From Desulfocapsa sp. (lineage in GTDB: Bacteria; Desulfobacterota; Desulfobulbia; Desulfobulbales; Desulfocapsaceae), in contig JAFLJS010000021.1 in the NCBI GenBank assembly GCA_022712895.1, forward strand, positions 62,001-126,000: 64,000 bases of DNA, given 5' to 3'. The stretch's first letter is position 1. Each line of letters starts with the position of its first letter. The position numbers and the translations under genes are program-made. Below the pieces are notes generated by a model. The model saw nothing but the letters and a program-made list of their open reading frames with translations, did not search any database and was not told where the DNA came from. Below are positions 37,495 to 55,854 of this stretch, piece by piece.

Positions 37495-37519
37495 ATAAAT
37501 GAATAGAGGAGGAAGTTAT

Positions 37520-37822: not shown

Positions 37823-38037
37823 GTATTAGGGGACAGTATTTCTCATTGTGTACTGGCTTGCTGTTCCTCTGTACAATCTTTGCCTCCCTATCGGGGGAGG
37901 AAACCTTCCATTTGTTTTGTTTCTTAATTTAGCCATTCCACAGGGATCTTTTCCAGCAAAGTGTTTTAGTGGTTCGTTGTTCTTACACCAGTAATTATCG
38001 GTAATTCGGTATTGAGTGTAGTTCTCTTTAGAAGGTG

Positions 38038-39995
38038 CTAATAAGCAAGGTGCCCAAGGGATTTCATAATAAGTGCCAGTCCCATGGCAAACATCCCCGT
38101 AAGGCCCATTCCACAGGAAAATCCGGCAAGTAATACCGGAGCATATTGTCTCCACATGGGACCGTATCTTTTCAGGAAGTAATAACGTCCTAAAAATGCA
38201 CCCAGTACTTCCAGAATCAGGCCATGCGGTGTCGATTGTCCAAGACCGCGGACAACTCCATAGATAAGCAAAATAGGCAGACCAAAGAGGCTGAGGATAA
38301 AATACATCACCAGCCCGAACCCAAGGCCCGAAAACACTGTGGTGCCACTCAGCGCCTGGTAGAACATGGAGTTCCCTTCTAGGGTGGATGTCTGCATCAA
38401 TAGAGTATTGAGGGCCTGTAGATGCCATAATTCTTGCGCAAAAGGATAATGGCTGGAGGGAATGGGGGCAAGTCGCCAGATAAATTGTGAAAAGAGCAGG
38501 CTCGCCACCATAACAATGGGGAATACCACAATTTCCGCTTTGATTATTCCTCGGATGGATGTTCCGGTGAGTTCAATCTGTCTGAATTGTACTGTCGCCT
38601 CGCCGTAATTGTGGATGGGGATGGGTGCATACCAGATCTCTATTCCCTGATAGCCAAAAAATTTGGCACCAGCTATAAAGCTAGCTTCCCGCACCAGAGG
38701 TAGGCTGACAAACTGTCCAGCTATCCCTTCCATTCTCGCTGAAATGTACGAAATAATAGGTGTGTAGATAAATCCGTAACCGAGAAAGAATATCCAAGGA
38801 AAATTGGGAACCAGCACGACGCAAAGTGCCACATAGGCGAGTGTCGAAAATACATAGATTGCAATGGAAATCCAGAAGTTAAAATCGCCCCTTCCTTCCG
38901 GTGGATGAAAAAGATCATGCAGCGTTCCCATATTTGTTTTTGTGCTGCGGTAGGATCTTACCACAGACCATATACCGATGACTCCGATGGCAAGGCCCAG
39001 CCCGATACCAAAACTCATATAAAAATCAAAGTTGTTGGCAAAAACAGTATCCACCGTAGCCATTCCAGGATGCCATCGTTCGAGTATGCCATGGGCATAG
39101 AGGATGGGGTTAAGGATAATGGTAATAATGAGACCAATGAGGCCGCCAATGACTGCCCAGAAGGGAAGTACCATACCAATAAAAACAAGTCCAAGATCCA
39201 GCTGAATACCCATGGCCACAGCAGGGAGAATATCTTCTGTATGTTGGGTGAGTTCTATCCAGGGGATGGGGATAAGACGGATTGGTTCATTGAAGATAAG
39301 TCCTGAGGCGATTGGCAGAAGAACATAGAAAGCGCCAAAAACAAGGCCGATAACGCCACCTATGGAAAATACTCGCCATTTCCAGCTTTTCTTCTTCTCT
39401 TCGGTGGATTCGGCAGGGCCATGGTACCCAATGCTCCGACAGGAGCCATGGGGAATGGCAGCTTTTCTACATCCGAGGTTATACGGTAAAGGGCATAGCC
39501 CAAACCAAAGTGATCAATGCGCTGAATAATCTGGGAGCCAACCAGCAACAGGATGGGAATCAGCCAGTCTCTGTGGAAAAATGTACGTTCCACCATGGAC
39601 AAGGAGTCGGCCCCTGGAGCCACCCAGGTGGGAATAAACTCTGCTAGTCCGAGCATTCGGGCGGCATCGGATTGCACCAGATACTGATTCCAGAGGAGGC
39701 CTGAAAAAGGTGATGCCAGAGCGGCTCCAGCCATATAGTAGAGTAGAAAAATCTCCTGCTGTTTGAGCTCTGAATGGGCTCGTTTTGCTACTTCTGCAAA
39801 GAGAATGATCGTTACCCAACGTGCGGCAGGCCCTATGCCTTGGCCAATAACCAGTTGCAGGTACATGGAACCTGGCATCATCAGAAAACCGATAAAGACT
39901 GCTCCGATTATAGTTTTCCAGTCGAAACCCTCTTCGAAATGATCGGGTGGCTTTAAGAGATCTCTGTATTCTTTTAGTTCTTTGTCGTCGTACAT
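38038..39995 (-). pseudogene. second OPT-like membrane transporter, split by a one-base frameshift
   Basis: Two open frames, 39360-39995 (211 codons) and 38038-39219 (393 codons to the first ATG), belong to one protein. Reading through 39219-39414 in the downstream frame gives AESTEEKKKSWKWRVFSIGG followed by a membrane segment that leads straight into the second part, and FPMAPVGALGTMAL at the end of the first part needs exactly this continuation. One base missing around 39411-39419 (minus strand CTGCCG for an expected CTGGCCG) explains it. The repaired product would have about 652 residues and 12 or more membrane segments, similar in size to the adjacent 665-residue transporter. It is the last gene of the leftward operon. 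The frameshift could be a mutation or a sequencing error. Confidence 0.78.
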
Positions 39996-40001
39996 TATTT
40001 A

Positions 40002-41999
40002 TTAATCAGGAAGAACCTGATACCCGGAATCAGTAAATAACCCCACAATGGCCCAACCGCCACCCATTAAAAAATCACCAATAATCAGTCCAATAAAAAA
40101 GAATTGAATTTTCTTGAACAGGGAAACTCCCCCGTAGCGTATACATAAAGCATTGCAGGCCCAGCCGATAAAAAAGCTTACCCATAAAATCCGCATGGCT
40201 GAACTGTATGCGGTGAGATAGCCAAGGGGGTGGATTGGCCACCAGTAAAAACGGTGATAACAGACAACCAGAATCAGCATGATTATGGCCCCTGCAATTG
40301 CAAAAAAGGTAATCCAGCCGCCCGGCTCTACAGGCGCAGTCATTAAACGATGCACATTTTCGAAAACTGTAATTGTTGTTCTACTGGCCCATTCGATTTG
40401 TAACTCTCGTGTTCCATAGCGGTAATAAAGTGTCATGATGGCCAGGATTGAGGCTACAAGGCTTGCAATGATCGTAAAAAAGAGTCCTGAAAAGATAAGT
40501 AATCCTGGGGTCTTTCCATGGCTCAGCCTTCTACCGTGGAGCAGGGAAGGCATCAGTGATTCGCGCAAGTCTACAAAGAGTACCTTTTGGGCCATGGCTG
40601 GTAGCAGACCATTTATACCGACAAAAAGTTTGGTCCCGCCCATGGACATTAAACCATCCATTGGAGCTGCAGTGAGTGTGAAGTACGCCAGTCCACCCTG
40701 ACAGATAATTCTGGCTGCCACCAGCATAATCATAAATGCTGCACTGAAAAAGAGCAATGCGCTACTGAGAGTCATGCCCAGTGTTACTGACCAGTATATC
40801 AGCCCGGAAAAACAGAAGATAGAGCCCCAGAATGAGACACGAACATCAAACCACTCGGTTCGTGCTTTGCGTGCTTTTGATAAGAAGAAGGATTGTTTGG
40901 TGACCTCCAGAAGATGTGATCGTGCCAGCCAGAGGAGAAAAACAAAGAAAACACCATAGGCGCCTATCATCTGCGTTTCTTCAGGTTTGGCCAGTGTAGG
41001 GCCAAATGTAATGCCAAGTTCAGATGCTGGGATTGAGTAGCCGAGCATTCCCAGCAGTCCAAAGAGCAGTCCACCAAGGATAAAAAAGAACCAGAAGCTG
41101 AAGGAAATTTGTCGGGAAGTAAGAAAGGCAAAACCGATAAAGGCGGGATAAATATAGATCTTCAACTTATGAAAGCCTGAAAAAAGTCCGTAGTCAGGGA
41201 AATAAGGGCCTGCCAGAATAAGAGTAGGCAGCTGGGGGACTGACGGGTAGTAAAAGTTAAAACCATTGAGTAGATGCAGCGAAACAGGGATTAATAACCC
41301 AAGCAACAGAAAACGATTGGTGAAAAAGGAGCCGACTTTTCTGTCGTCAAGAGCTCCAGCCAGCATTTCAGGAACCTTTAACAGGGGAAAGTTGATTCGC
41401 TCATTATGTATCCACTGTCTGGAAAATACATTGATAATAAAGAGCATAAAGCCGTAAGCCAGCAGAATAAACGTTCCCCAGAGAAGTAAAGGACTCAGCC
41501 ATGCCTGCCAGGGGATATTCTGTAAAACTTCCAGCCAACCCATCTCTCTACCACCAGGCAAACCGGTATAGAGCATCTCTATCGCCTCTTTACTGCTGGG
41601 CACAATGGATGATGGTAATACGCTGAGCAAGCTGTCCTGCCACTGGTTGGAAACCGTTGCGTAATGGATTGGAGTGGTGAGGTTTAAGAGCAGGGTTCTG
41701 GCAAGGCCTGTGTAGGCAATTCCGGAACCTATAACCATTTCAATCCATACAATGAGCAGCTCGCCACCAGTGAAGAGAAGGTTTTTCGAGCAGAATGTTT
41801 TGCTGGAAAGAGCCGTAATTATTACGAGCAAGATAAAGATAAAAAATGGAGCAAGAGGGAAATGCCCACCACCTAATGGTGTCGCCTGTTGATAAATATT
41901 GTTGAAGGGGCTGAGCAGGCAAATCCCAACGGCTAACAGCAAACCAGTGATAATGGCTCGCAGACGAATGACGTTAGTAGTATTGTTTTGCTCAGTCAT
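40002..41999 (-). CDS. OPT-like polytopic membrane transporter (DUF6785-type)
   Basis: The 665-residue protein has some 14-16 membrane segments and resembles the OPT-like DUF6785/DUF6784 proteins of planctomycetes and deltaproteobacteria; this rests on segments such as RQWIHNERINFPLLKVPEML after a membrane pair, and on the overall layout. OPT proteins carry oligopeptides or metal chelates by proton symport, but this branch has no proven substrate. Its ATG (41999) overlaps the stop of the giant M28-FtsX gene by four bases (ATGA), and the frameshifted paralogue follows after six bases. The operon context suggests linkage with peptide or lipid export. Confidence 0.72.
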   Translation of the reverse strand: MTEQNNTTNVIRLRAIITGLLLAVGICLLSPFNNIYQQATPLGGGHFPLAPFFIFILLVIITALSSKTFCSKNLLFTGGELLIVWIEMVIGSGIAYTGLARTLLLNLTTPIHYATVSNQWQDSLLSVLPSSIVPSSKEAIEMLYTGLPGGREMGWLEVLQNIPWQAWLSPLLLWGTFILLAYGFMLFIINVFSRQWIHNERINFPLLKVPEMLAGALDDRKVGSFFTNRFLLLGLLIPVSLHLLNGFNFYYPSVPQLPTLILAGPYFPDYGLFSGFHKLKIYIYPAFIGFAFLTSRQISFSFWFFFILGGLLFGLLGMLGYSIPASELGITFGPTLAKPEETQMIGAYGVFFVFLLWLARSHLLEVTKQSFFLSKARKARTEWFDVRVSFWGSIFCFSGLIYWSVTLGMTLSSALLFFSAAFMIMLVAARIICQGGLAYFTLTAAPMDGLMSMGGTKLFVGINGLLPAMAQKVLFVDLRESLMPSLLHGRRLSHGKTPGLLIFSGLFFTIIASLVASILAIMTLYYRYGTRELQIEWASRTTITVFENVHRLMTAPVEPGGWITFFAIAGAIIMLILVVCYHRFYWWPIHPLGYLTAYSSAMRILWVSFFIGWACNALCIRYGGVSLFKKIQFFFIGLIIGDFLMGGGWAIVGLFTDSGYQVLPD

Positions 42000-44900
42000 G
42001 ATAACTCGGCTCCCAAACTGTCTGTGGCCAGACTTTTGGCAGCTATCTTTTGAAATTCTTCCGAAAAATACTTATGACTTTCTTCGTCAATGGAGCGCCA
42101 TACTAGCAGTTGCTTACGAAGGTCATGGAGAAAAGAAGTATTGATTCGTTGCCAGAGTTGTTCTTCACCTGAACGCCGTTCCATTGTGGCTTTGATCTCA
42201 AGGTATTGTGAATCTCCCTCAACAGGGCAGAAGCGGATATCCACCCACTGCATAATACCAAAGTCGAATGGGGCAAGCCACACTTTTGAACGAATATAGG
42301 TACAGTACATTTCGTGTGGTTTGTCATGGCTTTTTATCAACTGTTGCATTTCCTCAATATTGCAGCAACTGAAAACAAGATCCACAGGACCCGTGGAAAA
42401 TAGCCCGTGGGACACATCCTGATGTGATTGGAAATAGTTGAAGATAAAACCGCCTAAAGAATCGTGCTCATCATATTTTACAAAAAAGGGCAGGGTAACG
42501 GTGATCTTATTGTCTTTGGCTTTCGGCAGATTGAAATTTGCGTTCACATCAGGGATAGCAATTTTTGCAGCAACCCGTGATGGGTAGATCACTGAGAGTA
42601 ATACCACACCGATAACCAAAATCATGGCAGCGACACCAGCCAAGGAGGAGTAGTTGACAGTGAGTCCTGCCCATATGGCAGTATCAGCAAAGAGAGATGC
42701 GGAAACCTGAGCCAGTAGATAACCAAGAACCACGGAGATAATAGCCAGCGCCAAAGCTTCTGCAATAAAGAGAAAAGAGACATGAGAAGGGGCCAAGCCA
42801 ACAGAAGTGTAGATTGCGATCTCATTTTTCCGTTCATAAACAGAGCTGATCATGGTGTTTAAGACGATAAAAATGGAAATGAGCAACGGGATGACAATAT
42901 TGGGAACGCCACTGTACTGGATGGAATCACTCTGGTTATAGAGCCAGACCCCATCTGTTTCACCGGCAAATATTGCCATGGAGAAGCGGTCAACCAATGC
43001 TTCAGCAGTTTCGCTGATATTGCCCTCTGGTCGCACTGCCAGGTTTTTCAGTTTGCCACCCAGAGTGAGTAAGGTGGAGGCCGGGATGATAGCAATTTGT
43101 GATGCGGGAATATGGTGATATCTACTCTGAAAAGAGCGTATATCATCACCGGATTCCATGGCCTCCTGTTCTACTTCTGTGAGCTCAGATCCAGATTCCT
43201 GGGGAAAGGTCACTGGAGTTAGCGGTTCCCCATCAAGATCTAACGCGTTGTCGATTCTTTGCCCTGAAAAACTTCCTATTACTGTAAAATCATAGCCCCA
43301 GACGGTGATTGTTTCACTGCTGTCAGTTTTTACTGAAAGGGCTTTGGCCATATTTTCATCAAGGATTATAGCTAAACGATCATCGTCTGTAAACCAACGG
43401 CCACTGCTCAGAAGATGATTCAATCCGGTCACCTCTGCTTCCGCAGGGGAGAGCCCGATGAGGCCTTGGAGTGTTGCTTTATTTTTCTTGTGGCGTAGCG
43501 GGACATGGACAGCCTTGGAAGCATCACGGGCTTCAAGCCAGATTCGAGGGGCAATGCCCTCTGTATTTTCAAAGCCGTCAATCAGTGAGCCCACTGCCTC
43601 AACGGGCATGCTGCGCCAGTCCACCCGCTTTAAGAGTAATCCCTGATATGGAGCTTCTTCTTGAAAAAAGAGTCGGCTCTGTCGTTCACCAGATTTCACC
43701 GTGGTAAAACTCATAATAGTGAATGTGAGAATAATAAGGGTCAGGCAGGTAAGAACCGTACGAATTCTGCGACGTCTGAGATTGGAAACACCGAGGAAAA
43801 AAGCAGCAGTAAAAGCCTTCCAGTGGCTAATTTCGGATGGCCTTTTATGGCTGGCCCGTCGCTGGAGGAGTATCATCTCTTCCTCAAAACGGAAGAATAT
43901 AATCAGGCTCACCATGAGAGACAGCCCCAGAATAAAAAAGGCAAGGATTACAACAGTGGGACTGTACGCCAGTTGGAAGGCGGGGTGTACCTGACGGATA
44001 ATGGTGATCAGTATGAGCAGGATCACCATAAAGGCTACGATCCGTTTATAAATATTTGCGTAATTGAATAAAAACCGTTCCATGCAGAAGGCAAAAGGAA
44101 CAAAGAGGGCAATGTAAAACAGGACTCCAAAGAGTACATCTTTTTGCGTTTTTTCAACCTGCATATAGACCCGGTTGGCAAGAGCCATGGCCTCAGATGC
44201 TGTTTTGCTGAATGTTGCGTAATCCCGTTCGCTGTAGGCGGTTGTCGCCTGTTGAAGGGCAGCTAGGCCGCGTTTCTCAAGGCTTGATAGCTTGTCGTCA
44301 TAGATACCGTGTTTCTCAAGATTGGCGATACGTGGAGAGAGCAGTGTCCAGATATCTCTTGCCGCCTGGAAAGTTGTATTGTGAATTGCTGCATACTGAT
44401 TAACGGGATAGCCTAATCCCATGGTATTGTCATCAGTCGCGTTGGTGAGGATCATCTTTCTGGTCAGGACATTGTCTGAAAGCGTTGCTTTAAGCCAGGT
44501 TCCGGGTTCAGTATAGATTGAGGCCATGGTGGAGTTACGGGTATCAATGCGGCTGTACCAGTAATGTTGTGGTGGTGCATCCCTCCGGCCATCTAGAAGA
44601 TTGATCTTGGTCAGGTAGTTAAAGTTTCGTGGTTCCAGAAGGCCGAAGATGGTAGTTTCTTTGCAAGAGAAGAGGGTAATGTCGGTCTTAGTGTGGCGTT
44701 TACGAATTTTTACCCGGTAGTTTTTCTTCCCGGTCTGTTTTTTGTCGATGGCCCAGATAACCTTGCCGCTTTCCTTGTCAAAGCGGTAGCCCTCTATGAT
44801 CAGTTTGTCCAGCACATGTTTTTTATCGGCTACTCCTTTAATCTGAAATCTGCCAATGGAATCCACAATTGCATAGTGTTTCTGCTGACCCTGGTAAGCA

Positions 44901-46813
44901 AGAAGTATGGTTCCTGCCGCAGGGTAATTGGCAAAAAGTTCTCCCTGTAGGAGTAAGTTGGCACGTCCGGTGACGGTGGCAAAACCATTACGCGGTAGTT
45001 TCCCGGAATGCAGTTTTTGCTTTCCTGCCATAGCCTGAATCATATCGGAAACAAGCAATGTCTGGTTTTCAATATTCTCCAGATTGATATTGCCAGGTGT
45101 ATCCCATGGTGTTCCCCAAAGAGCCCTGGCGTCACCAGTACTTACAAGACTGATGCCTAAGAATCCGGCAAGAGAAGCAATTTCACCACCAAGGCCAGGC
45201 TTGTCAAGGAACCAGGAGTCCCAGGATCGCATACGGCTGGGACGTAGAGTGTTCCTGTAGGGGGTTTGAGATTTGCTTGTTTTGGCAACATTATCCAGAA
45301 GGTCGGCAAGGGTGGAAAATATTCCGGTACGGTTTACCCGGGCTTTGAGATTATACAAAAATCCCTGATGAAAGGCTCCTATGCCATTGCCGTGGCTGGA
45401 GAGATGCAGGGAGATTACAGCAGCTACCTCGTAGGAATCTTTTATGAAATTTCGAAAGGCAAAGGCCGTTTTTAATGTTTTGAGATGGCTTCTCAGCTCT
45501 TTTGCCTGCTGCTTATTGGTTTTGATGGCCTTGGGTAGCGATGCCAGAAAAAGGTCTTTTTCTGTGCCAGTAATATCATGAAAAGAGGAACGCCATCCCA
45601 TTCGCCGATAGAGCAATCGACTTTGGGAGAGTTTTTTGATCGCAGCCTCTGTCTCGGGAGTTTTGTTTTCCCCATGAAGCAGGCGAAGTGAGATCAGTTG
45701 TCGTGAGACTTTATCCACAGAGAGCTTCAAGTGGTCGGCCAAGGCTTGACTAATAACGATGTCCCGTTCTTGGTCTTCTTCAAGTGGCCAGTTTATATTC
45801 CCCAAAACTTTCAGGTTGTTTAGGGTTTCGTTAAGGCTGCTTTTTAGTCGTTTTTTCTGTTCTTTTAAGAGTTTCTTTTTTGAACTGAGGCTCCAGAATA
45901 GATCCCGCATTCCGGCTAAACTCTGATTATATCCAGAATTGGCAATCAGCAACACGGACCTGGCTGGTGGGTTGTCATGCAGTGTTTTTGCGGTTTGTAA
46001 AAGTGTTGCGATGGAGGTCGCTTCATCAGCTCCCGGCGCGTTCCCTGCAACAAACCCGGAACCGTCATAAAAGGCCTCGATGATAAGCAGTTCTTTATTT
46101 AGTTCCGGATCAGTTCCGGGAATAAGGCCGTAAATGTTCTCAGTGACGACCTCCTGCCAATAGGCTACAGCTGTTAGGTCAGCATTCGCAGCGATAAGAC
46201 CTGGCGTGTCGAAAAGCTTTTTTTCGAAAAATGTATAGAGGTGTTTTTCCTCCATCCAGAAACAGGGAAGTTGGATAGGGGTGAGTTCTTCTTTTTCTGT
46301 AAACAGAAATTTAGACCTCACAGTAGAATCGTTGAGGTAGATGATCGCTTTTGCGCCTAGAGAGGCAAGTCGCTGCCAGGTCTGGCCGGAGTCGATATCA
46401 AGGATGATGATTGCATTTTCAATGTCCATGCCCTTAATATCTGCCCAACTACCGGCTCCGACATAGTAGAGTGGACCACTTAATACGCCGTCAGTGGCTT
46501 CAGGGGTAATGGCATTATAACGAAGGATATCGAGACTGATTTTCTTATCTCCTATCAGTAGCGATGCACCTTTGTTTTTTCTTATGGGGATGGGATAGCG
46601 ATAGCTTTGAGGCTCGATGCCCAGAGCTTCAAATTGAGAACGGATAAGTTCTGCTGCCTGCTTACAGCCTTTGCTTCCAGTGATACGTTCAGAAAAGGAA
46701 GAGAAGTGGCTGATCTGTTCCTGTAGGGAGAGGAACTGTCCTGCAATGGCCCCATGTGTGGAAACCATTAAGACGAAAAAAACAGCCAGTGAAAGTTTTT
46801 TGAGAAATGACAT
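41996..46813 (-). CDS. giant fusion: M28-peptidase-like ectodomain plus FtsX/MacB-type permease
   Basis: The 1605-residue protein has a signal peptide (1-25), a PA-like insert (about 110-215) and an M28 aminopeptidase-like fold with LLIIEAFYDGSGFVAGNAP near 243-260 and GADEATSIATLL at 261. In active M28 enzymes the first strand ends in HxD; here the histidine is F248, with D250 and D263 kept, so catalysis is doubtful. WGTPWDTPGNINLENIEN near 580 and a carboxypeptidase-regulatory-like segment follow. Three membrane segments lie at about 890-990, then an FtsX permease at about 1010-1410 (NLRRRRIRTVLTCLTLIIL; IPLLISIFIVLNTMISSVYE), then a 190-residue cytoplasmic tail. The adjacent ATPase and short FtsX protein probably complete an ABC complex. 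It is co-transcribed with the OPT-like genes. Confidence 0.82.
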   Translation of the reverse strand: MSFLKKLSLAVFFVLMVSTHGAIAGQFLSLQEQISHFSSFSERITGSKGCKQAAELIRSQFEALGIEPQSYRYPIPIRKNKGASLLIGDKKISLDILRYNAITPEATDGVLSGPLYYVGAGSWADIKGMDIENAIIILDIDSGQTWQRLASLGAKAIIYLNDSTVRSKFLFTEKEELTPIQLPCFWMEEKHLYTFFEKKLFDTPGLIAANADLTAVAYWQEVVTENIYGLIPGTDPELNKELLIIEAFYDGSGFVAGNAPGADEATSIATLLQTAKTLHDNPPARSVLLIANSGYNQSLAGMRDLFWSLSSKKKLLKEQKKRLKSSLNETLNNLKVLGNINWPLEEDQERDIVISQALADHLKLSVDKVSRQLISLRLLHGENKTPETEAAIKKLSQSRLLYRRMGWRSSFHDITGTEKDLFLASLPKAIKTNKQQAKELRSHLKTLKTAFAFRNFIKDSYEVAAVISLHLSSHGNGIGAFHQGFLYNLKARVNRTGIFSTLADLLDNVAKTSKSQTPYRNTLRPSRMRSWDSWFLDKPGLGGEIASLAGFLGISLVSTGDARALWGTPWDTPGNINLENIENQTLLVSDMIQAMAGKQKLHSGKLPRNGFATVTGRANLLLQGELFANYPAAGTILLAYQGQQKHYAIVDSIGRFQIKGVADKKHVLDKLIIEGYRFDKESGKVIWAIDKKQTGKKNYRVKIRKRHTKTDITLFSCKETTIFGLLEPRNFNYLTKINLLDGRRDAPPQHYWYSRIDTRNSTMASIYTEPGTWLKATLSDNVLTRKMILTNATDDNTMGLGYPVNQYAAIHNTTFQAARDIWTLLSPRIANLEKHGIYDDKLSSLEKRGLAALQQATTAYSERDYATFSKTASEAMALANRVYMQVEKTQKDVLFGVLFYIALFVPFAFCMERFLFNYANIYKRIVAFMVILLILITIIRQVHPAFQLAYSPTVVILAFFILGLSLMVSLIIFFRFEEEMILLQRRASHKRPSEISHWKAFTAAFFLGVSNLRRRRIRTVLTCLTLIILTFTIMSFTTVKSGERQSRLFFQEEAPYQGLLLKRVDWRSMPVEAVGSLIDGFENTEGIAPRIWLEARDASKAVHVPLRHKKNKATLQGLIGLSPAEAEVTGLNHLLSSGRWFTDDDRLAIILDENMAKALSVKTDSSETITVWGYDFTVIGSFSGQRIDNALDLDGEPLTPVTFPQESGSELTEVEQEAMESGDDIRSFQSRYHHIPASQIAIIPASTLLTLGGKLKNLAVRPEGNISETAEALVDRFSMAIFAGETDGVWLYNQSDSIQYSGVPNIVIPLLISIFIVLNTMISSVYERKNEIAIYTSVGLAPSHVSFLFIAEALALAIISVVLGYLLAQVSASLFADTAIWAGLTVNYSSLAGVAAMILVIGVVLLSVIYPSRVAAKIAIPDVNANFNLPKAKDNKITVTLPFFVKYDEHDSLGGFIFNYFQSHQDVSHGLFSTGPVDLVFSCCNIEEMQQLIKSHDKPHEMYCTYIRSKVWLAPFDFGIMQWVDIRFCPVEGDSQYLEIKATMERRSGEEQLWQRINTSFLHDLRKQLLVWRSIDEESHKYFSEEFQKIAAKSLATDSLGAELS

Positions 46814-46990
46814 AGCGTTTAGCCCGTATTTCTCTCGAGTTGAGGTGACTGTTTGTAAGAGGAACGAGTCGACAGTTTATAGTAATCTATGCTGTTGACG
46901 TTAGCGACGTGGCAGATGTAGCCTTGTCCGCTCGACTTTGAAGTATATTTTGTGAAAAGGCAACTCTTTGGTATGTGCATAAATTGTTTT

Positions 46991-47030
46991 TTACTTAACC
47001 ATCTAAAATCTGGGTTTTTACGAGTTTATC
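46991..47030 (-). repeat. fragment of family 1 element
   Basis: The reverse complement reads GATAAACTCGTAAAAACCC then AGATTTTAGATGGTTAAGTA, the left 40 bases of copies 2 and 3. The rest of the element is absent. It sits between the giant M28-FtsX gene and its ATPase gene. Confidence 0.65.
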
Positions 47031-47075
47031 AAGTTTTGTACTACAATTGAACAAAATGTTTATGAGAAATACGGG

Positions 47076-47804
47076 TTAGCTGCTCATTCCTCCGGTATGA
47101 ATTTCAAGTTCATCCCGCTCCTGGATCTTTTCCACTCGACCGTCTCTAATCCAGATTACCTGATCGGAAACGTTGAGCATTTTATAGTCGTGGGTAGCAG
47201 AAATAACGGTTACCTCCCGGTCTTCGCTCATATCTTTCAAAAGAGTGATGATTTCTTCACCAGTTTTCAGATCAAGGTTACCAGTGGGCTCATCAGCAAG
47301 AATAATAGACGGCGAATTTGCAAGGGCCCTTGCTACGGCAACACGTTGCTGCTGACCACCGGATAATTCGGATGGTTTGTGAGCGTGTCTGCCTTCAAGG
47401 CCAACTTTTTTCAGAAGTGCCATTCCCTTTTCCACTGCCGCTTCCGATGGTGTTCCGGCAAAGGTCATAGGTAATGTCACATTTTCAAGGGCGGTCATCA
47501 CCGGGATAAGATTAAATGTCTGGAAAATATAGCCAATTTTTCGACATCGCAACCATGCGAGTTCATAAGCATCCAGTTGAGCAATATCCACCTCATCAAT
47601 AAAGACTTTGCCAGCCGTTGGTTTATCAAGGCCACCAATCATGTTAAAGAGAGTGGATTTTCCAGATCCTGATGGTCCCATGATGGAGACATATTTTCCG
47701 GTTTCGATTTCGAGATCTATGCCTTTTAGAACCTTGACGACAATTTTTCCCAGATCGAAATCTTTGGTTACGTCTGTTACTCGGACTATGTTCTTTTTCG
47801 TCAT
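47076..47804 (-). CDS. ABC transporter ATPase, LolD/MacB type
   Basis: A complete ATPase domain of about 242 residues: [18 protein letters not shown] (Walker A), the Q-loop in [18 protein letters not shown], signature [18 protein letters not shown], Walker [13 protein letters not shown] and the H-loop ATHDYKML. This is the LolD/MacB class that drives FtsX-type permeases without moving substrate through the membrane domain. The ATG at 47804 is chosen; upstream codons to 47912 overlap the FtsX gene and look non-family. It stands between the short FtsX gene and the giant fusion, the likely partners. Confidence 0.92.
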
Positions 47805-47841
47805 ATTTTCATTTGATGGTAGACGTTCAATCTTATAATTC

Positions 47842-48492
47842 CTAATGTTCTGCCCGCATGGCCTCAACAGGCTGCATACGAGCAGCCATAACAGCAGGAT
47901 ACAAGACACCAATCAGACTTAATGTAATGCCGGTAAGCATTGCAATTGCCAGAGATCCTCCCATGGTCTGCCAGGGAATATGTGTCATACTGTCTGTACC
48001 AAAACGAATCCATGCACCGAGTAGTGCGACAATTCCTCCAAGTATTGCCCCGGAAACGGCACCAGCAAATCCCTGCATGGCCGCCTCAATAACAAAAATA
48101 CGCACAATAAATCGATCCAGTGCGCCGAGGCATTTCATGGTGCCTATTTCTCGAAAACGTTCAGTAACGGACATTAGCTGAGCATTGATAATACCAACCA
48201 CACAGACAAGAAGAGAAAGAATAACTATCCAGCGCTGCTTTGGAGATGCTGCAAGACTTGTTGCTCCGGGATTTATGTCGTATCCACAACGTATGAGGGT
48301 CTGGCACATATCCGGACCGCCATTCGTCAGTAAACTGTCGGCGATATCAATGGTAATCTGGCTGAATGCAAGAAATGATACAGCAAGGATGAGAGTCAGA
48401 GTGGTCACAAGAGAACGAAAAAAACGTGCCCTGATAGATTTGTATGCAATCTCTATGGATTTGCTTAATGGTAATACGACCAGACGACTCAT
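47842..48492 (-). CDS. short FtsX-like ABC permease
   Basis: The 216-residue protein has one N-terminal membrane segment (RSLVTTLTLILAVSFLAFSQ) and three C-terminal ones, with the FtsX coupling segment VTERFREIGTMKCLGALDRF and the end YPAVMAARMQPVEAMRAEH. The periplasmic domain between TM1 and TM2 is only about 60 residues, much shorter than in LolC or MacB, so this is a reduced permease. It is the first gene of the leftward operon with the ATPase and the giant M28-FtsX fusion, suggesting an asymmetric permease pair. Confidence 0.88.
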   Translation of the reverse strand: MSRLVVLPLSKSIEIAYKSIRARFFRSLVTTLTLILAVSFLAFSQITIDIADSLLTNGGPDMCQTLIRCGYDINPGATSLAASPKQRWIVILSLLVCVVGIINAQLMSVTERFREIGTMKCLGALDRFIVRIFVIEAAMQGFAGAVSGAILGGIVALLGAWIRFGTDSMTHIPWQTMGGSLAIAMLTGITLSLIGVLYPAVMAARMQPVEAMRAEH

Positions 48493-48565
48493 AATTTCCC
48501 GATGATGAAGTTATGTTTCTTTTTTAAAAAGAATATCTCTTCTGTCATTTTTTGCCAACGATTAT

Positions 48566-48683
48566 TAGTACCTTGTAAATTCTTTTCATGTATTTTCACC
48601 CATCAAGGGGGTATTTCACTGGGTGAAAAGAATTTGGTGAAGGTGCTTATACAGGCTTACTGCTCTTCACCGAGGATAATAGC
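48566..48683. repeat. family 2 repeat with a strong hairpin
   Basis: TTAGTACCTTGTAAATTCTT opens the copy. AATTCTTTTCA (48578-48588) and TTTTCACCC (48593-48601) can both pair with GGGTGAAAAGAATT (48621-48634), giving a hairpin around ATCAAGGGGGTATTTCACT. It lies after the 3' end of the deacetylase gene and before the FtsX gene and may end the glycan operon. Confidence 0.45.
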
Positions 48684-49469
48684 TTATTCAGTCATAGTCT
48701 GTAGAAGCTCTTGAAAAAGTATGGGCTGGAGTCTTGATTCTGTACGAATGGTGTATAGTAACAAATCAAGAAAATCAAAAGCAGTTTGGTTCATGCGCTG
48801 ATGATGAATCATAATGCCGCCAGTTCCTTCAGCGATTCCTTGTGATATTTCTGAGAGTAAATTGTGTAGACATTTTTCCGGATCTGTCTCTTTTCTGGTA
48901 TGCAGATCAATATTTACCTGAAAGTCGGACAGTCCGATGGGAGGAGCCGGTTTGGCATTTTTAGATCGTGAAACTGCGTGAAATTCGAGTTTTTGTAAGC
49001 CTTCAAGTGTGTCCTGGGAACAGCGATTCCACGGGGGGGTGAAAAAAGGGGAAAACTTTTCTCCAAGGATCTGTTTTAAGCGTTCTTTTCCCTTCTTGAG
49101 ATCAGCAACTTGATTTTTTGCTGATCGTGTAGAGCCAAATTCCTGCTTTTTACCAAGTATTTCATAGTTACGATGCAGCCAACCATGTTGATGCCAACAC
49201 CATTGAGAACTTGTCGGGCCTGTATCCTCAAGAAGTGTAATCAATCGATTTTCTGTAATCCAGGTGGGAACAACAGCCAGACAAAGAGGGATTTTGTGTT
49301 TGGTAAATAATTGAATCAGTTTTGAAAATTGTTGTCCCGGAATCCCGATATCGTCTGCCCTGAAAAAAATATGTGCACTGCCTGTTCCCTGGGCAAGTCC
49401 GTCTGCCACAGTTTTCTGTAACATCTGTTCCGTATTTTGCGGCAGGTTTTTATAGAGAGAGGATATCAT
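48684..49469 (-). CDS. polysaccharide deacetylase-like protein
   Basis: This is a NodB-homology fold protein: FFRADDIGIPGQQF carries the catalytic and metal Asp pair, WHQHGWLHRNYE the two histidines, FTPPWNRCSQ the motif 3 arginine region, and GGIMIHHQRM the late histidine motif. No signal peptide is present, so it may act in the cytoplasm on a nucleotide- or lipid-linked sugar, or on an N-acyl substrate. It is the last gene of the leftward glycan operon, with one base between its start and the upstream glycosyltransferase stop region. Confidence 0.8.
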   Translation of the reverse strand: MISSLYKNLPQNTEQMLQKTVADGLAQGTGSAHIFFRADDIGIPGQQFSKLIQLFTKHKIPLCLAVVPTWITENRLITLLEDTGPTSSQWCWHQHGWLHRNYEILGKKQEFGSTRSAKNQVADLKKGKERLKQILGEKFSPFFTPPWNRCSQDTLEGLQKLEFHAVSRSKNAKPAPPIGLSDFQVNIDLHTRKETDPEKCLHNLLSEISQGIAEGTGGIMIHHQRMNQTAFDFLDLLLYTIRTESRLQPILFQELLQTMTE

Positions 49470-49470
49470 G

Positions 49471-50631
49471 TTATTGTTGGTTCCAGAGTTTGATGTTGCT
49501 GATTAGTTCACAGCTTTTGACTGCACCATCCAGATCAACAGCATTCGATTTTTTTGAATGTGTCAGTTTCTCACAGATTAACTCCACAAGTTTTTCAGGG
49601 TTGAGGTCCGCTGTCTCAAGCAATGTGAAATCACAACAATCACTAAATGCTGCAACACGCATTCGTTGTTCGCGATTTTGAGTAAAAGGATGGAGCAATG
49701 CCGGAATGGATGCTTCAAGCAGGTTCATGCAGGTGTTGTATCCTGCCATGGAGATGGAGAGATCGGCAGCTTGTAACCAATCGGGGAAATTATCGCAAAA
49801 ACTGTGGATGTGAATATGGTCAGACTCGTATGCTTTTAGTTTGTCCTGTAGGGTAGGGGCGGAGTAGGGGCCTGTAAAAAGATGGAAATGAATCTGTTTA
49901 TTATTGTTGAGGAGCGTGGCTGCCGCAGCTGTAGCCTGCAGAAGCTCTGCTCCGACGTTACCGCCACCAATACTGGCAACAACTAGTTTGTCTTCTTTTG
50001 AGAGCTTTAGCTGTGGCCGGATACTGTTTTTTGTTTGTGTGTGCTTCGGAGTTACAAATCCCGTGTATTTTGTTGGGATCGTAATGGAATCTGTTGCTGA
50101 GAAGGTGTGATCAAGGGGGATATAATCAGGATCGGAATGGATGAGCAACCCGTCAAATGAGTTGTTTAAACTGTTCAATACTCGTGTTTCGTATTTTTCT
50201 TTGTCTTTTTTCTCCACCAGGATATCCCGTAGGCTACAGAGTCGCAGACAAGGTGAAAGCGTACCCATAGCAATGCCGGTAAAAATTGGAACCAGCTCAA
50301 AGCCAAAGGCCTTGCGTCCAAAGGGGAAGAGCTCTACCAGGAAGATATCGGGTTGAAAGTCTTTAAATAGATTGAGAAGTTGCTTTTTTCTTAGGATTTT
50401 GAGTTGTTCCAGATCCTGCTTTGCATCACACGGGATTAGTTTTGAGAAATTACTATCCATCATCAGACCTGGCAGCTGATGAAATGTTACATCTGTTTCA
50501 GGTAAATAAACATCCGGTCCGCCAAGGACCATAACAGTTTCGTGTTGAACCGCCAGAGCCTTACAGATTTCCAGGCTTCGGTGGAAGTGTCCTATTCCAA
50601 GGACGTGTTGGCAATAGCAGACGACTTTCAT
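49471..50631 (-). CDS. MurG/GT28-like glycosyltransferase, first paralogue
   Basis: A GT-B fold enzyme related to MurG: the N-terminal CQHVLGIGHFHRSLEICKAL glycine loop, the central VASIGGGNVGAELL and the C-terminal donor-binding SMAGYNTCMNLLEASIPALL followed by HPFTQNREQ. The ATG at 50631 is preferred to a TTG two codons upstream. It is clearly paralogous to the 53832-55028 gene (GLGHIRRSMAIASHL; MGGYNTICEIL) in the same operon. The donor and acceptor sugars are unknown. Confidence 0.85.
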   Translation of the reverse strand: MKVVCYCQHVLGIGHFHRSLEICKALAVQHETVMVLGGPDVYLPETDVTFHQLPGLMMDSNFSKLIPCDAKQDLEQLKILRKKQLLNLFKDFQPDIFLVELFPFGRKAFGFELVPIFTGIAMGTLSPCLRLCSLRDILVEKKDKEKYETRVLNSLNNSFDGLLIHSDPDYIPLDHTFSATDSITIPTKYTGFVTPKHTQTKNSIRPQLKLSKEDKLVVASIGGGNVGAELLQATAAAATLLNNNKQIHFHLFTGPYSAPTLQDKLKAYESDHIHIHSFCDNFPDWLQAADLSISMAGYNTCMNLLEASIPALLHPFTQNREQRMRVAAFSDCCDFTLLETADLNPEKLVELICEKLTHSKKSNAVDLDGAVKSCELISNIKLWNQQ

Positions 50632-50739
50632 AAGCAATAAATACGAATATCGAACAGGGAGCCACGCCAGCCTTGTTTACCTGAACGAGGGACAGCAGCA
50701 TTGTTTTTACTGTTGATTCGATCGTTGATGTTCATTTTT

Positions 50740-51384
50740 TTATCTTAAAAAATCGGGAAAAACGTTTATCGGGCCCAATGTCAGTTCTCTGTTTTTACTG
50801 TAAACAAGATGCATCTGTCGGTTCTGGATTATCTTTTTTTCGTCAGGCATAAACTTACGTCCAGCCAGGTGGTAAAGAATAGATTTAACAATCCCTTCAT
50901 GACAGACCAGCAGGATCTGTTCTCCAGGAAAACGATCTAAAATATTTTCTACAACCGGCAAGGCACGTTGTAACACTTCCAACCTACTTTCACCTCCAGG
51001 TGGGCAAAAATCCCAACCGGCTGCCACTTGCTTTGCCAGCTCTTCACCTTCATGCAACTCCGGGAAGGTCTTTCCTTCCCATTCACCCCAGGACTGTTCC
51101 CGTAATGCAGAGTCGAATTCCAGTGGAACATCCTCAATATATTGCTGGATAATGGCAACTGTTTCCTTGACCCGACTAAGATCACTACTGATAATCCGAT
51201 CAATGGAAACTGTAGCTAAGAATTTCCCCCATTGATGAACCTGTTTGGCACCATTTTCGGAAAGAGGAGAATCTTTATGTCCCTGAATGCGTTTGGCTTC
51301 ATTCCAGACGGTTTTGCCATGACGGAGTAGGGCAATTACTGTTTGCTTTTTACTGGTATCTGTGTGCTTAAGCAGGGTTCGCAT
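50740..51384 (-). CDS. histidine phosphatase superfamily protein
   Basis: The RHG motif appears as ALLRHGKTVWNEAKRIQGHK with DSPLSENGAKQVHQWG, ISSDLSRVKETVAII and the second histidine in ILLVCHEGIVKSILYHLAG. These belong to the phosphoglycerate mutase-like phosphatases (CobC, GpmB, sugar phosphatases). At 214 residues it is a phosphatase rather than a mutase in appearance. Its start overlaps the stop of the upstream GT4 gene by 17 bases, so it is a true member of the glycan operon and may remove phosphate from a sugar intermediate. Confidence 0.88.
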   Translation of the reverse strand: MRTLLKHTDTSKKQTVIALLRHGKTVWNEAKRIQGHKDSPLSENGAKQVHQWGKFLATVSIDRIISSDLSRVKETVAIIQQYIEDVPLEFDSALREQSWGEWEGKTFPELHEGEELAKQVAAGWDFCPPGGESRLEVLQRALPVVENILDRFPGEQILLVCHEGIVKSILYHLAGRKFMPDEKKIIQNRQMHLVYSKNRELTLGPINVFPDFLR

Positions 51385-52483
51385 ACTGTTTCAGGACTCT
51401 CTCAAATTGAAGATAGTTTTGGTGAAGATCGTGATTGCTGCGTACATGTTGTGCGGCGGCTTGTCCCATACTATTACGTTGTTCAGGAGAGTGCAGTAAC
51501 TGTTTTACTGCTGTGCAAAATTCCTCTTCCGCAAAGGGACGTGTGAGAATTGCAGTTGTGTTTGGTTTAACGACTTCGGGGATACCACCATTATTAAAGG
51601 CAACAACGGGAAGGCCACAGGATTGTGCTTCTAAGAACACCATGCCAAGAGATTCTCTGATCCCTGGAAAGGCAAAGATATCTCCACCTGAATAGAAACT
51701 TTGCATCTTTTCCCGTTTGATTTTCCCTGCAAAAATGACTTGTCCCGGAAGGTATGTGTCTGCTATTTTTGTTAAATGGTCTCGTTCACTGCCATCTCCG
51801 GCGATGATAAGTTTAAATGCTATGGACTCAGCAGCAAGAGCTGCCAATGTTTGTATCAGCCAACTCAAGCCTTCTGTTTTGACATCGGGGCGAAACATGG
51901 CTGCGCTGAGAATGACCGGAGTGTTTCCAACCTGCCACTGCTTTCGCATCTTTGCTCTTGCCTGTTTGTTAAATAGAAATTGTTCTGGGAAAATTCCGGG
52001 TTTAATGTAACTGAGTTGCTTGGCAGGTATAATCCTTTGTAGGTTTTTATGATCGTTACCACGGTTGGTGAAAAGGTGGTCTGCTTTGCGCAATGCGTGA
52101 CGGTTGAGGTAGAATCCGAGGGTGGTTTTAAGCTTGCGTCTTCGCTTGGTGGAGTAGATTCCCTGGAAAATTATGTAGGGGATCTTTTCGATTTTACAAA
52201 TCACAGGACCAAGTAAATCAGGAGATTTATAGTAGCAGTGGTAACTTAGCCAGATGTCTGGTTTGAAATTCCGAATGCGTTTTCGGGTAGCAAAATATTC
52301 CAGGGTGATTTGGGGGAAAAGCCAGGGTTTCCAAAAAATCCAGCGACTACGAAATTCACTGGCAATCATGACTTTATGGCCGCGTTGGGCCAGGAACTCA
52401 ACCAAACTGGTAGCAATGATAAGGTCGCCAGATGGATTTGGGTGGCCAATGGGTTTAAAGGGCGCGTAAAAGCAGATCTTCAT
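51368..52483 (-). CDS. GT4 glycosyltransferase
   Basis: A GT-B retaining glycosyltransferase of family 4: the N-terminal YAPFKPIGHPNPSGDLIIAT, the LSAAMFRPDVKTEGLSWLIQ middle, LIIAGDGSERDHLTKIAD and the EX7E-type donor site ESLGMVFLEAQSCGLPVVAF with NNGGIPEVV. It uses a nucleotide sugar to extend a polysaccharide or lipid-linked glycan. It overlaps the downstream phosphatase gene by 17 bases. Confidence 0.88.
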   Translation of the reverse strand: MKICFYAPFKPIGHPNPSGDLIIATSLVEFLAQRGHKVMIASEFRSRWIFWKPWLFPQITLEYFATRKRIRNFKPDIWLSYHCYYKSPDLLGPVICKIEKIPYIIFQGIYSTKRRRKLKTTLGFYLNRHALRKADHLFTNRGNDHKNLQRIIPAKQLSYIKPGIFPEQFLFNKQARAKMRKQWQVGNTPVILSAAMFRPDVKTEGLSWLIQTLAALAAESIAFKLIIAGDGSERDHLTKIADTYLPGQVIFAGKIKREKMQSFYSGGDIFAFPGIRESLGMVFLEAQSCGLPVVAFNNGGIPEVVKPNTTAILTRPFAEEEFCTAVKQLLHSPEQRNSMGQAAAQHVRSNHDLHQNYLQFERVLKQYANPA

Positions 52484-52590
52484 TAGTGCCTTATTGCTTT
52501 ACTGCTCGTGTTTTGTAGTTGCAAATTATCCGGTATAATTTCAATCGGTAGTGGATGTAATTACCAAGGTACTTATACCGTATCTCGGTG

Positions 52591-53835
52591 CTATGTTAAG
52601 TAGGGCGAGAAAATTTTTCCAAGCTGTGCCACAAGCGTACGGTTATTGAAGTTGTGACTGGTATGGTCGCGGCCCCCCTGGATAATTGATCTTCTGAGAT
52701 CCGTATCTGTTAATACTTTTTCTATGGCCTCGGCCATGATTATGGCATTTCCAGGTTCTATTGTAATGCCGCTTTTAGTATTCAGCAGGATTTCTGGAAC
52801 TGCTGAAACCGTTGTCGATAGTGCAGGGACTTCCATGGCCAGAGCTTCAACTAGTACGTTTGGAATACCATCCCGGTCCCCATTGGCGGCAATTTCACAG
52901 GCAAGCACGAAAAGGTCACTCTGTTCAAATTGCCTCAGCACTTCGGTATGGGTTCTGGTGCCGAGCCAGTGACAACAATCGGTAAGATCAAGGTTTTTGA
53001 TAAGTTGCAGGATTTTGTCCCGGTCATCACCGTCACCAATTAGGGTATGGTTGAATGTAAAGTTTTTGTCCTTGAGTATCCGTAATGCTCTGTAGAGAGT
53101 GGGGAGTCCTTTCTTCTCGGTGATCCGGGCCACTGTCAATATTGTATATGGTGCTGAGCAGGTGTTGTGATCTGTTTTAGGAGAGAATAATTTGAGATCA
53201 ATGCCATGATAAATACAGTGGATGGGAGTATCCAGCCCTTGTGCAATATCTTCAAGATAGCGCTTGTTATACTCGGTGCAGGTGATAACGAACTCGGCCA
53301 GTTTGATTTTCTCTCGTAGCTGCTTTGGGTTAGAAGTGTAAATATCTTTGGCATGAGCAGTAAAGCTGAACGGTTTTCCTGAAAGCAGGGAGGCAAACAT
53401 GGTAACCGAAGTCGGTGAGTGGGCAAAATGACCATGAAGATGGGATATCTCTGTGTTACCCAGCAGGTGCTTGTTGGTTAAAAAACCGGCCTGTAGCAAA
53501 TGCTTGAAGGTTGCAAGGTTACCGGTACGTTTATAACGTACATTTGCCAGTTGCAGGCCTTGCTGGAAAAGTTTCGGGCGTTTTACCGCGAGAAAGATAT
53601 TTGGCAATAAGAGGCGTGGAAATTCCAGTAACAATTCGGTTGGCAGATAATCCACCTTCGCCTGAATCTGCTTTACAGAATCGTGACAAAAAGATTCCCT
53701 GGGATGACGCATGGGAAAGAGCTGCATGCGGAAGCCAAGTTTTTCCAGCAGCAGAATTTCATTTGAAATAAATGTTTCAGAGATACGGGGATAGCCTTTG
53801 AGGATATAGGCAAGTGTTGAAGATACGGTGCTCAT
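52591..53835 (-). CDS. GT4 glycosyltransferase, colanic-acid-type
   Basis: A 414-residue GT4 enzyme: N-terminal ILKGYPRISETFISNEILLL, typical of exopolysaccharide transferases, the HLHGHFAHSPTSVTMFASLL and FTAHAKDIYTS region, TVARITEKKGLPTLYRAL, and DRDGIPNVLVEALAMEVPAL with STTVSAVPEIL at the donor site. Its ATG overlaps the stop of the upstream MurG-like gene by four bases (53832-53835). Confidence 0.9.
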   Translation of the reverse strand: MSTVSSTLAYILKGYPRISETFISNEILLLEKLGFRMQLFPMRHPRESFCHDSVKQIQAKVDYLPTELLLEFPRLLLPNIFLAVKRPKLFQQGLQLANVRYKRTGNLATFKHLLQAGFLTNKHLLGNTEISHLHGHFAHSPTSVTMFASLLSGKPFSFTAHAKDIYTSNPKQLREKIKLAEFVITCTEYNKRYLEDIAQGLDTPIHCIYHGIDLKLFSPKTDHNTCSAPYTILTVARITEKKGLPTLYRALRILKDKNFTFNHTLIGDGDDRDKILQLIKNLDLTDCCHWLGTRTHTEVLRQFEQSDLFVLACEIAANGDRDGIPNVLVEALAMEVPALSTTVSAVPEILLNTKSGITIEPGNAIIMAEAIEKVLTDTDLRRSIIQGGRDHTSHNFNNRTLVAQLGKIFSPYLT

Positions 53836-55028
53836 GAATTCTCTCTGAAATGTTCAACTCTGCTACGCATGGTATCGAGGCCGGAAAGTTCAAAGTCTGC
53901 CATCTTTTGCTGATAGCTTTTGCTGTTGTCGAGAATAGTAACAATCTTGTCGCGTAAAAGTTGGGCTGTAACCTCAGTCCAGGGGATATAGTCTATCAGG
54001 CCTTGCTCAGTTAATTTTTCTGCTCGAATCAACTGTTCTTTGCGTGGTGTTTCCCGTGGAATAATCAGTGCCGGGGTCTGTTGGCTGAGTATCTCACAAA
54101 TGGTATTGTATCCGCCCATGGAGATGACCAGGTCGGCAGCTCCGATTAACTGTTCCATCTCCGGCAGGAAGGGCATGGTTTTGATTCCACACTGCAATGC
54201 TCTTTTTCTGATTTTTGTGCGACTTGATTTTGGCATAAAAGGGCCAGTGATCATCAGTGTCTTGAAAGGGAGCGTGGTGGGAAAAAATTCGTGCATTGCC
54301 AGGTAGTGATCGAGAAGTTCGCAGCCGTCACCGCCACCACCAGCGGTGACAAGGATAAAGGTGTCATCATCTAGGATGCGATATCGTTTTCTGATTTTAC
54401 GGCGTACTTTTGGTGGCCAGTATTTTCGGGGAATATAACCCGTGAAACGGATTTTTGGCTCCAGTGATCTGGGTATATTGTATTCAGTGATGGGGTCATA
54501 AATCTCCCTGTTGCCGTAGACCCAGATTTCGTCATAGAGTGTTTCCAGGTATCCATACACATTTTTGGATTCCCAGTCCCTGCGAACAACTGGCGATTCG
54601 TCAAGGATGTCACGTAAGCCAAGGACAGTTTTAGTGGTCGGTAAGAATTCTCTGAACCATTGCAGAGTGGGGAGCACTTCGCGTTTTAGGCCAAGAGGTT
54701 CTTTGTCTACAATAAAGAGGTCGGGGCGAAAGGCTTCGGCTGTGGCTGCGATAATGTTTTTTCTGATGTGCAGTGCCTGCTCAGGATCAAGGCGAATAGA
54801 GAGGGAATGGTATTCGTCGTTGGTCTTCTTGATCATTCCGGGGATACGGACAAAATCCACCTGTTCGGGCAGGGTGTATCTTCCGGCAATAGGGGAGCCG
54901 GTGATAATAAGAATATTAACTTCCTTTCCGGAAAGGTGGCTGGCAATGGCCATGGAACGCCTGATGTGGCCCAATCCGTAGGTGTCATGGGAATACATGA
55001 GAACATTATAGATTGGTTTGTCAGACAT
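53832..55028 (-). CDS. MurG/GT28-like glycosyltransferase, second paralogue
   Basis: Another GT-B enzyme with MYSHDTYGLGHIRRSMAIAS at the N-terminus, VTAGGGGDGCELLDHYLAMH at the linker and SMGGYNTICEILSQQTPALI at the donor site, followed by IPRETPRKEQ. It is longer than the paralogue at 49471-50631 but shares the same layout. It sits upstream of the GT4 gene and below the acyltransferase, near the start of the leftward operon. Confidence 0.87.
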   Translation of the reverse strand: MSDKPIYNVLMYSHDTYGLGHIRRSMAIASHLSGKEVNILIITGSPIAGRYTLPEQVDFVRIPGMIKKTNDEYHSLSIRLDPEQALHIRKNIIAATAEAFRPDLFIVDKEPLGLKREVLPTLQWFREFLPTTKTVLGLRDILDESPVVRRDWESKNVYGYLETLYDEIWVYGNREIYDPITEYNIPRSLEPKIRFTGYIPRKYWPPKVRRKIRKRYRILDDDTFILVTAGGGGDGCELLDHYLAMHEFFPTTLPFKTLMITGPFMPKSSRTKIRKRALQCGIKTMPFLPEMEQLIGAADLVISMGGYNTICEILSQQTPALIIPRETPRKEQLIRAEKLTEQGLIDYIPWTEVTAQLLRDKIVTILDNSKSYQQKMADFELSGLDTMRSRVEHFRENS

Positions 55029-55073
55029 ATCGTCGGGTTGGTGTGTAATTTGGCTGAAGGCTATTGATGTTAG

Positions 55074-55649: not shown

Positions 55650-55854
55650 GGCTTAACTCTGGTAGGGTAGTAGTAGGTGCATCTGTGTTACCAGCTGGAG
55701 GAGTTGTTTTGCCGGGAAGGTGTGGAGGAGAGCTCTAACAGCAGGGATGAATGGTAAGTCGGGACAGGTATCTTGGTGTTACCGTTTACCATTTGAGTTT
55801 GTTGGGGCTCCAGAAGATCTTGTTTTTGTATTACAGCTTTCAGGAAGTAAGGCA

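Follow-up and report, generated by a model that had tools for sequence, protein, structure and literature searches.

In a 64,000-nucleotide stretch of DNA from Desulfocapsa sp. (the window; assembly GCA_022712895.1, contig JAFLJS010000021.1, positions 62,001 to 126,000), we found a reverse-strand open reading frame at window positions 41996-46813 that encodes a 1605-residue fusion of an M28 peptidase-like ectodomain, a membrane cluster, an FtsX permease and a tail. Judged from residues across its family, the M28 domain is almost certainly catalytically dead. Very probably, the fusion gene belongs to one co-inherited module of five genes carried by a group of sulfur-cycling bacteria, the others encoding a short FtsX permease, a LolD-type ATPase and two multi-spanning membrane proteins. 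We favour, at slightly less than an even chance, the reading that the module specifies a type VII (MacB/LolCDE/YbbAP-class) ATP-binding cassette (ABC) mechanotransmission complex whose target is a glycan or lipid of the envelope, and in which the dead M28 fold would serve as a scaffold or docking domain.

The M28-FtsX fusion and its peptidase site

The first-pass annotation of this DNA had described a 1605-residue fusion with a signal peptide, a three-segment membrane cluster, an FtsX core and a cytoplasmic tail, and reading frames, Pfam, hydropathy and structure models all agreed with it (Table 1). Pfam detected Peptidase_M28 at residues 226-307 (E 6.3e-6, 26.5 bits against a cut-off of 21.3) and, in the C-terminal half, MacB_PCD at 1019-1183 (4e-6) and FtsX at 1308-1418 (1.6e-11). 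Hydropathy peaks lay at 893-911, 921-939 and 954-972, which form the three-segment cluster, at 1019-1037, and at four more places within 1306-1409. The odd number of segments in the cluster fits a periplasmic ectodomain followed by a cytoplasmic entry to FtsX. The nearest relatives among the best 80 of 141 were from Desulfocapsa metagenome genomes (93% identity for a partial copy, then 82% and 81%).

The AlphaFold2 model of residues 26-995, built from 60 aligned sequences, had a mean predicted local distance difference test score (pLDDT) of 88.5 and a predicted template modelling score (pTM) of 0.84. With VIA-align 2, its top match was the Bacillus subtilis aminopeptidase 6hc6 (Z 27.3, 377 residues, 5.6 Å), and it also matched 1amp (Z 26.2, 252 residues, 2.5 Å) and the transferrin receptor 3kas (Z 25.5, 381 residues, 7.0 Å). 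These matches concern model residues 2-586; the beta-rich and helical regions beyond lie outside them. A profile search of the sequences of solved structures recovered M28 aminopeptidases (2ek8, E 4.2e-12) and, weakly, the transferrin receptor (E 0.005 and above). The M28-like ectodomain had initially been put at about 860 residues; its M28 fold is firm, but that fold covers only about residues 30-600. In the predicted model of the permease half (residues 870-1598), the best matches were HrtB 7w7c (Z 17.6, 147 residues, 1.9 Å) and the MacB periplasmic domain 3ftj (Z 13.3, 170 residues, 3.0 Å), and LolC, FtsX and YbbP folds were matched as well. The long permease alignments have root-mean-square deviations of roughly 10-20 Å, indicating that the placement of domains differs.

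We next examined the active site. HMMER alignments to 2ek8 and 6hc6 placed F248 at the histidine of the HxD motif, as had been proposed, D263 at the bridging aspartate and residues 295-296 at the EE pair; weak second matches placed G567 at the C-terminal histidine. H470 was assigned to the aspartate-ligand position from an alignment with two M28 proteins of the same phylum as outgroup (L141 and L142), which carry the canonical motifs HYD, GADD, GGEE, NVD or NLD, and YH..GDT. The family alignment comprised 99 rows from two collections (26 deep or other rows added onto 73), of which 97 were distinct at 99% identity; 96 of these had letters at the first three ligand positions. Position 248 was never histidine (0/96; F in 82, P in 8, S in 3, R in 2, A in 1, and one gap). 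Glutamate was absent at both 295, the general base, and 296, the metal ligand (0/96 each), the former being His in 66 and the latter Asp in 4. At the aspartate-ligand position 470, Asp occurred in 1 of 97 sequences and His in 82, and position 567 was never His (0/97; Glu in 2, Asp in 1). Only the bridging D263 was retained (94/96), together with D250 of the HxD motif (96/96). One of the five metal ligands is thus kept and four are lost family-wide, which bears out the degenerate site proposed at first; the opposite outcome, all five ligands present at shifted positions, was not found.

An active enzyme, with shifted metal ligands or with other chemistry on the M28 fold such as that of a glutaminyl cyclase, could draw on the kept D250 and D263, on the frequent histidines at 295 and 470 and on the Asp at 296 in 4 of 96 sequences. 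However, the only Asp, Glu, His or Cys columns conserved in at least 90% of rows within residues 30-600 were D250, D263, D367 and D571, with no His, Cys or Glu among them, and the C-terminal histidine was missing throughout. We rejected this candidate on these family-wide residues and regard it as very improbable. The histidines H295 and H470, found in most members, could form a metal site specific to a clade, but such a site is not conserved in the deep members. As a separate observation, read by eye, the M28 domain of L141 and L142 follows a peptidase-like region with an HEILH motif, and in L141 it precedes a PDZ-like end.

Conservation was then compared along the fusion as the mean majority fraction over the 99 rows, with the boundaries of regions 601-780 and 781-880 set by hand for this count. 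The values were 0.54-0.56 for the M28 core, 0.43 for its insert, 0.67 for the beta region, 0.56 for the helical region, 0.80 for the three-helix cluster, 0.86 for the first transmembrane helix (TM1) of FtsX, 0.55 for the MacB-like domain, 0.81 for TM2-4 and 0.63 for the tail. The membrane cluster and FtsX helices are therefore the most constrained parts, followed by the beta region and tail, whereas the M28 part ranks with the more variable ones. Since the old ligand positions also drift in deep members, nothing points to a conserved pocket as the working end of the protein, and the M28 fold appears to behave like a scaffold.

Co-inheritance and order of the five core genes

We searched 395 genomes of the phylum with four queries, each at its own threshold: the ectodomain (1e-8), DUF6785 (1e-10), the short FtsX (1e-30, which leaves out weaker relatives) and the second multi-spanning protein, of about 650 residues (1e-10). 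The ectodomain query matched 31 genomes, 28 strongly (E 1.4e-162 or less) and three weakly (E 5e-10 to 5e-9); two of the weak matches, in G176 and G203, were motif-complete M28 proteins, and the third was in G244. Each of the other queries matched 28 genomes. The four sets of 28, carrying 12 family labels, were identical. The first-pass annotation had proposed to look for the fusion in other genomes, and the genomes with strong matches to it proved to be the same as those with the three other queries. Shared descent and close linkage inflate this agreement, which thus indicates co-inheritance and not 28 independent events.

A contig scan confirmed 141 relatives of the fusion, and the best 80 (79 loci) were used for neighbourhood counts, with loci of sufficient flank as denominators; lolD and the short FtsX were counted within about 3 kb upstream, and downstream genes anywhere in the flank. 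The lolD gene was present in 56/57 loci and the short FtsX gene in 55/57, both upstream, and downstream DUF6785 was found in 58/60 and the ~650-residue protein in 46/48. Among eight deep or complete members that we fetched, seven (L158-L161 and L163-L165) had all five core genes in order and L162 had four; in L159 about 2.7 kb separates the fusion from DUF6785, and the fetched stretch breaks off within the last gene. These results fit the earlier claim that a LolD-type ATPase and a 216-residue FtsX lie just upstream, where reading frames and Pfam also placed them, and they show that both genes stay with the fusion; the opposing case, in which the two would pair with other genes in relatives, was not borne out. 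The description of a three-part machine, in contrast, was too narrow, for the module also holds the DUF6785 protein and the ~650-residue protein. A mobile or viral origin was considered and rejected: plasmids held no relatives of the fusion or of DUF6785, and viral contigs none of the fusion.

The fusion, short FtsX and LolD-type ATPase are quite probably partners in one ABC system. In the short FtsX, TM1 is followed by a loop of about 42 residues between hydropathy peaks, which replaces the periplasmic core domain, and then by TM2-4. For the ATPase we took the start at 47804 (242 residues), although the list of reading frames begins at an earlier TTG (278 residues); its Walker A, signature and Walker B motifs were each found in 66 or 67 of 68 homologues.

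For the DUF6785 and ~650-residue proteins, sequence searches gave no solved relative, the two rows returned for the latter (E 0.42) being at chance level. The idea that they are relatives of each other was dropped after hhalign gave a probability of 0.2, itself weak owing to low-diversity alignments. Both may resemble OPT transporters. Across 16 loci, the ~650-residue protein shared 78-89% identity with the first row, against 40-57% for the fusion ectodomain in the 53 rows that follow the six closest. The constancy of the ~650-residue protein is expected of a part with many contacts, and it would suit a machine that, like FtsEX-EnvC, uses ATP to activate a periplasmic enzyme or the two multi-spanning proteins and extracts nothing, a kind of activation for which the FtsX class is known. 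The core, however, has no constant periplasmic hydrolase, and we consider this explanation improbable.

Two features of the window itself concern these genes. The ~650-residue gene is a single open frame in the other 27 of the 28 genomes; its split here, at about 39.4 kb, reflects either true damage or an error of sequencing. Between lolD and the fusion gene lies a gap (46814-47075) of 262 bases, against a median of about 51 in 67 relatives, which is flanked by inverted arms of 15 bases. Within the gap is a dispersed repeat of about 50 bases. With 40 of 122 candidates scored, at least 39 other copies of the repeat were counted in the genome, and it was also seen at 37321-37360 and 29703-29741.

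Table 1. Features of the fusion protein, its core partners and the upstream genes, in window coordinates
Feature	Position	Strand	Basis
Signal peptide, residues 1-25 (AIA-GQ)	46739..46813	-	by eye and hydropathy
M28 fold, residues 30-600, with helical insert at about 316-457	45014..46726	-	AlphaFold2, fold search
Beta-rich region, residues 601-780 (mainly beta)	44474..45013	-	AlphaFold2 model, conservation
Helical region preceding the membrane segments, residues 781-880	44174..44473	-	AlphaFold2 model, conservation
Three-helix membrane cluster, residues 881-985	43859..44173	-	hydropathy, model, conservation, PADLOC CARF_LolE_TM match
FtsX/MacB permease core, residues 1010-1420 (TM1, MacB-like periplasmic domain, TM2-4)	42554..43786	-	Pfam, fold search
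Cytoplasmic alpha/beta tail, residues 1421-1605	41999..42553	-	model, fold search, conserved motifs
Short FtsX permease, 216 residues	47842..48492	-	Pfam FtsX 3.7e-17, hydropathy
LolD-type ATPase, 242 residues	47076..47804	-	ABC_tran 2e-34
DUF6785+DUF6784 multi-spanning protein, 665 residues	40002..41999	-	Pfam; its start overlaps the fusion stop by 4 bases
Multi-spanning protein of about 650 residues, split over two frames	38038..39995	-	homologue comparison
Upstream genes: polysaccharide deacetylase (DUF2334), two GT28-like and two GT4-like glycosyltransferases, histidine phosphatase	48684..56406	-	Pfam
Hexapeptide-type acyltransferase and small beta-barrel protein	within 48684..56406	-	both below Pfam cut-offs

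Gene neighbours and the proposed substrate

The genes around the module are mostly glycan-related. Among loci with enough flank, GT28 was present in 40/44, the histidine phosphatase in 37/41 and the polysaccharide deacetylase in 35/44. Because of these neighbours, we tentatively suggest an envelope glycan or lipid as the substrate, which is possible but falls short of an even chance. The module itself encodes two FtsX halves, one of helices only and one with a large ectodomain, along with the LolD-type ATPase and two multi-spanning proteins. By homology, the short FtsX and the fusion should pair as permeases above a LolD dimer. ATP binding would then move the periplasmic stalk and ectodomain, and this movement, in concert with both multi-spanning proteins, could pull a lipid-linked glycan or glycolipid from the outer face of the membrane (the inner one) or present it there. 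On this reading the M28 fold has lost its cutting role and may act as a scaffold or as a surface for docking; the key contacts would be made by the beta region and membrane cluster. More tentative still is the full proposal of a five-protein inner-membrane system of Desulfobacterota, in which a type VII lever with a fused pseudo-peptidase would drive two multi-spanning families, one of them strongly conserved across the phylum, in the assembly or transfer of a glycolipid or polysaccharide of the envelope.

Several observations weigh against the glycan-directed type VII complex. Glycosyltransferase relatives lie directly upstream in only three of the eight deep members (L160, L161 and L163); in L159 one lies about 8 kb off on the other strand, and L158, L162, L164 and L165 have none. 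Scanning 18 more frames near five deep members with Pfam revealed other kinds of neighbours, namely a c-di-GMP protein gene and a Cas6-like gene (L158:809-1843) near the module of L158, and radical-SAM/SPASM and PqqD genes just upstream in L165 (L165:7330-9055). The deacetylase has no visible signal peptide and so is probably not a periplasmic partner. The module is not always complete either: L067 lacks lolD and the short FtsX upstream, L100 the short FtsX and DUF6785, and L065 DUF6785, and in the L162 genome the ~650-residue gene is on another contig. Finally, the permease-half model is only fair (pLDDT 76, pTM 0.46). In the same scans, L162 had a GDP-mannose-dehydratase-like gene instead of glycosyltransferases, L159 a GT4-like frame as well as an alginate-export-like protein that scored below threshold, and L164 a histidine kinase gene. 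Deep members are thus poor in glycosyltransferase neighbours, and the glycan reading rests on the majority of nearer relatives.

The first-pass annotation had instead suggested the capture of peptides, lipopeptides or murein fragments. In such a scheme the ectodomain would be a receptor, reusing the M28 fold as the transferrin receptor does, and the machine would move the bound ligand. The fold is intact, the transferrin receptor is among its matches, and W566, T568, P569, D571 and S472 are invariant in all 99 rows; the radical-SAM/SPASM and PqqD genes of L165 also favour it. Nevertheless, the neighbours are mostly glycosyltransferases and the polysaccharide deacetylase, the M28 part is less conserved and its ligand positions drift, so that little specific support is left and we judge a peptide receptor unlikely.

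Some further features of the surroundings were recorded. On the forward strand, an MsbA-like ABC protein gene (34144-36702) has its ATPase domain as two separate ABC_tran stretches with a long insert between them, and a cyclic-nucleotide-binding protein gene (36644-37210) overlaps it; 25/44 loci have an MsbA-like relative on the downstream side of the module. Rfam matched nothing in 37000-57000. Promoter-like sites were at chance level (29 against a mean of 30.0 in shuffles), whereas terminator-like sites were in excess (36 against 19.1).

Comparison with known systems

Outside Pfam, the fusion matched a PADLOC model, CARF_m8--CARF_LolE_TM, which covered residues 854-1464 (E 1.2e-54) far better than any Pfam model there; CARF_Beta-galactosidase_LolE_TM matched residues 1238-1429. 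At 1e-18 the CARF_LolE_TM model matched 32 of 336 genomes, of which 22 bear the fusion, with all their matches within profile positions 9-599; the ten others had frames of 276-452 residues, the ordinary FtsX size. Among 14 control genomes, 13 matched at looser E-values and none at 1e-18. The fusion therefore shares the membrane cluster, FtsX and the start of the tail with a recorded class, which elsewhere, by the model names, carries other ectodomains and a CARF part. It differs from that class in its M28 ectodomain and in that profile positions 600-810, taken as the CARF part, are unmatched in the listed fusion matches. The PADLOC match is not evidence for a role in defence.

This likeness raises the explanation that the protein is a signalling device, in which the ectodomain or membrane cluster would sense the state of the envelope or an antibiotic, as in BceAB, and the tail would relay it. 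Of all matches in the 336 genomes to this model, which is named for a ligand-sensing CARF fusion, those of the fusions score best, and the tail is conserved; yet the CARF positions are not reached, the core has no kinase or regulator, and the fold matches of the tail are weak (KA1, Z 8.5; Bet v1-like, Z 7.9), near the level common for the tool. We thus give this explanation a low probability. The tail also has strongly conserved motifs, WLAPFDFGImQ, LEI, R.sGE and lRkQLL.WRS, that belong to no named domain.

The favoured type VII complex can be set beside better-known members of its class. PMC12646458 describes MacB, LolCDE, FtsEX and YbbAP as passing ATP-driven movement to the periplasmic side. 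Two features of type VII systems are present here: the fusion has an FtsX-type four-helix permease with a MacB-like periplasmic domain, which the short FtsX lacks, and the ATPase is of the LolD/MacB type with its catalytic motifs. As in LolCDE, a LolD-type ATPase is combined with two FtsX permeases, and the fold matches. Unlike in LolCDE, one permease has no periplasmic domain, and its counterpart carries three additional helices besides an M28 ectodomain. All scores fell below the NCBIfam cut-offs for equivalog-level LolC/E or LolD identity (53.1 bits against 362.45 for lolCE with the 216-residue protein; 228.6 against 307.75 for LolD_lipo_ex, the best model of the ATPase).

Type VII ABC systems and the LolE_TM class are already known, as are dead M28 folds in membrane proteins. 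In the open-licence literature that we searched we found no M28-FtsX fusion, reduced partner or tie to the two multi-spanning families, nothing on DUF6785/DUF6784, and nothing on nicastrin or the transferrin receptor as non-peptidase M28 relatives. The transferrin receptor and nicastrin are membrane proteins that carry an M28 fold without catalysis, as the fusion is predicted to do, but they are animal proteins with no ABC transporter joined to them.

In YbbAP-TesA of Escherichia coli, too, an ABC ATPase is combined with an FtsX permease that has additional mass in the periplasm, where an enzyme fold is also located, and the fusion permease matched the YbbP fold (Z 12.8, 312 residues, 19.9 Å). 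TesA, however, is a separate and active esterase, whereas here the enzyme fold is an M28 domain, predicted to be dead, within the permease chain, and the module adds a second, reduced FtsX and two multi-spanning partners. If the favoured reading holds, the module would add to these systems a type VII ABC system of new architecture and unusually tight gene partnership, give the DUF6785 and ~650-residue families a defined molecular setting, and provide a clean case of an enzyme fold that a transporter has retained for mechanics or docking.

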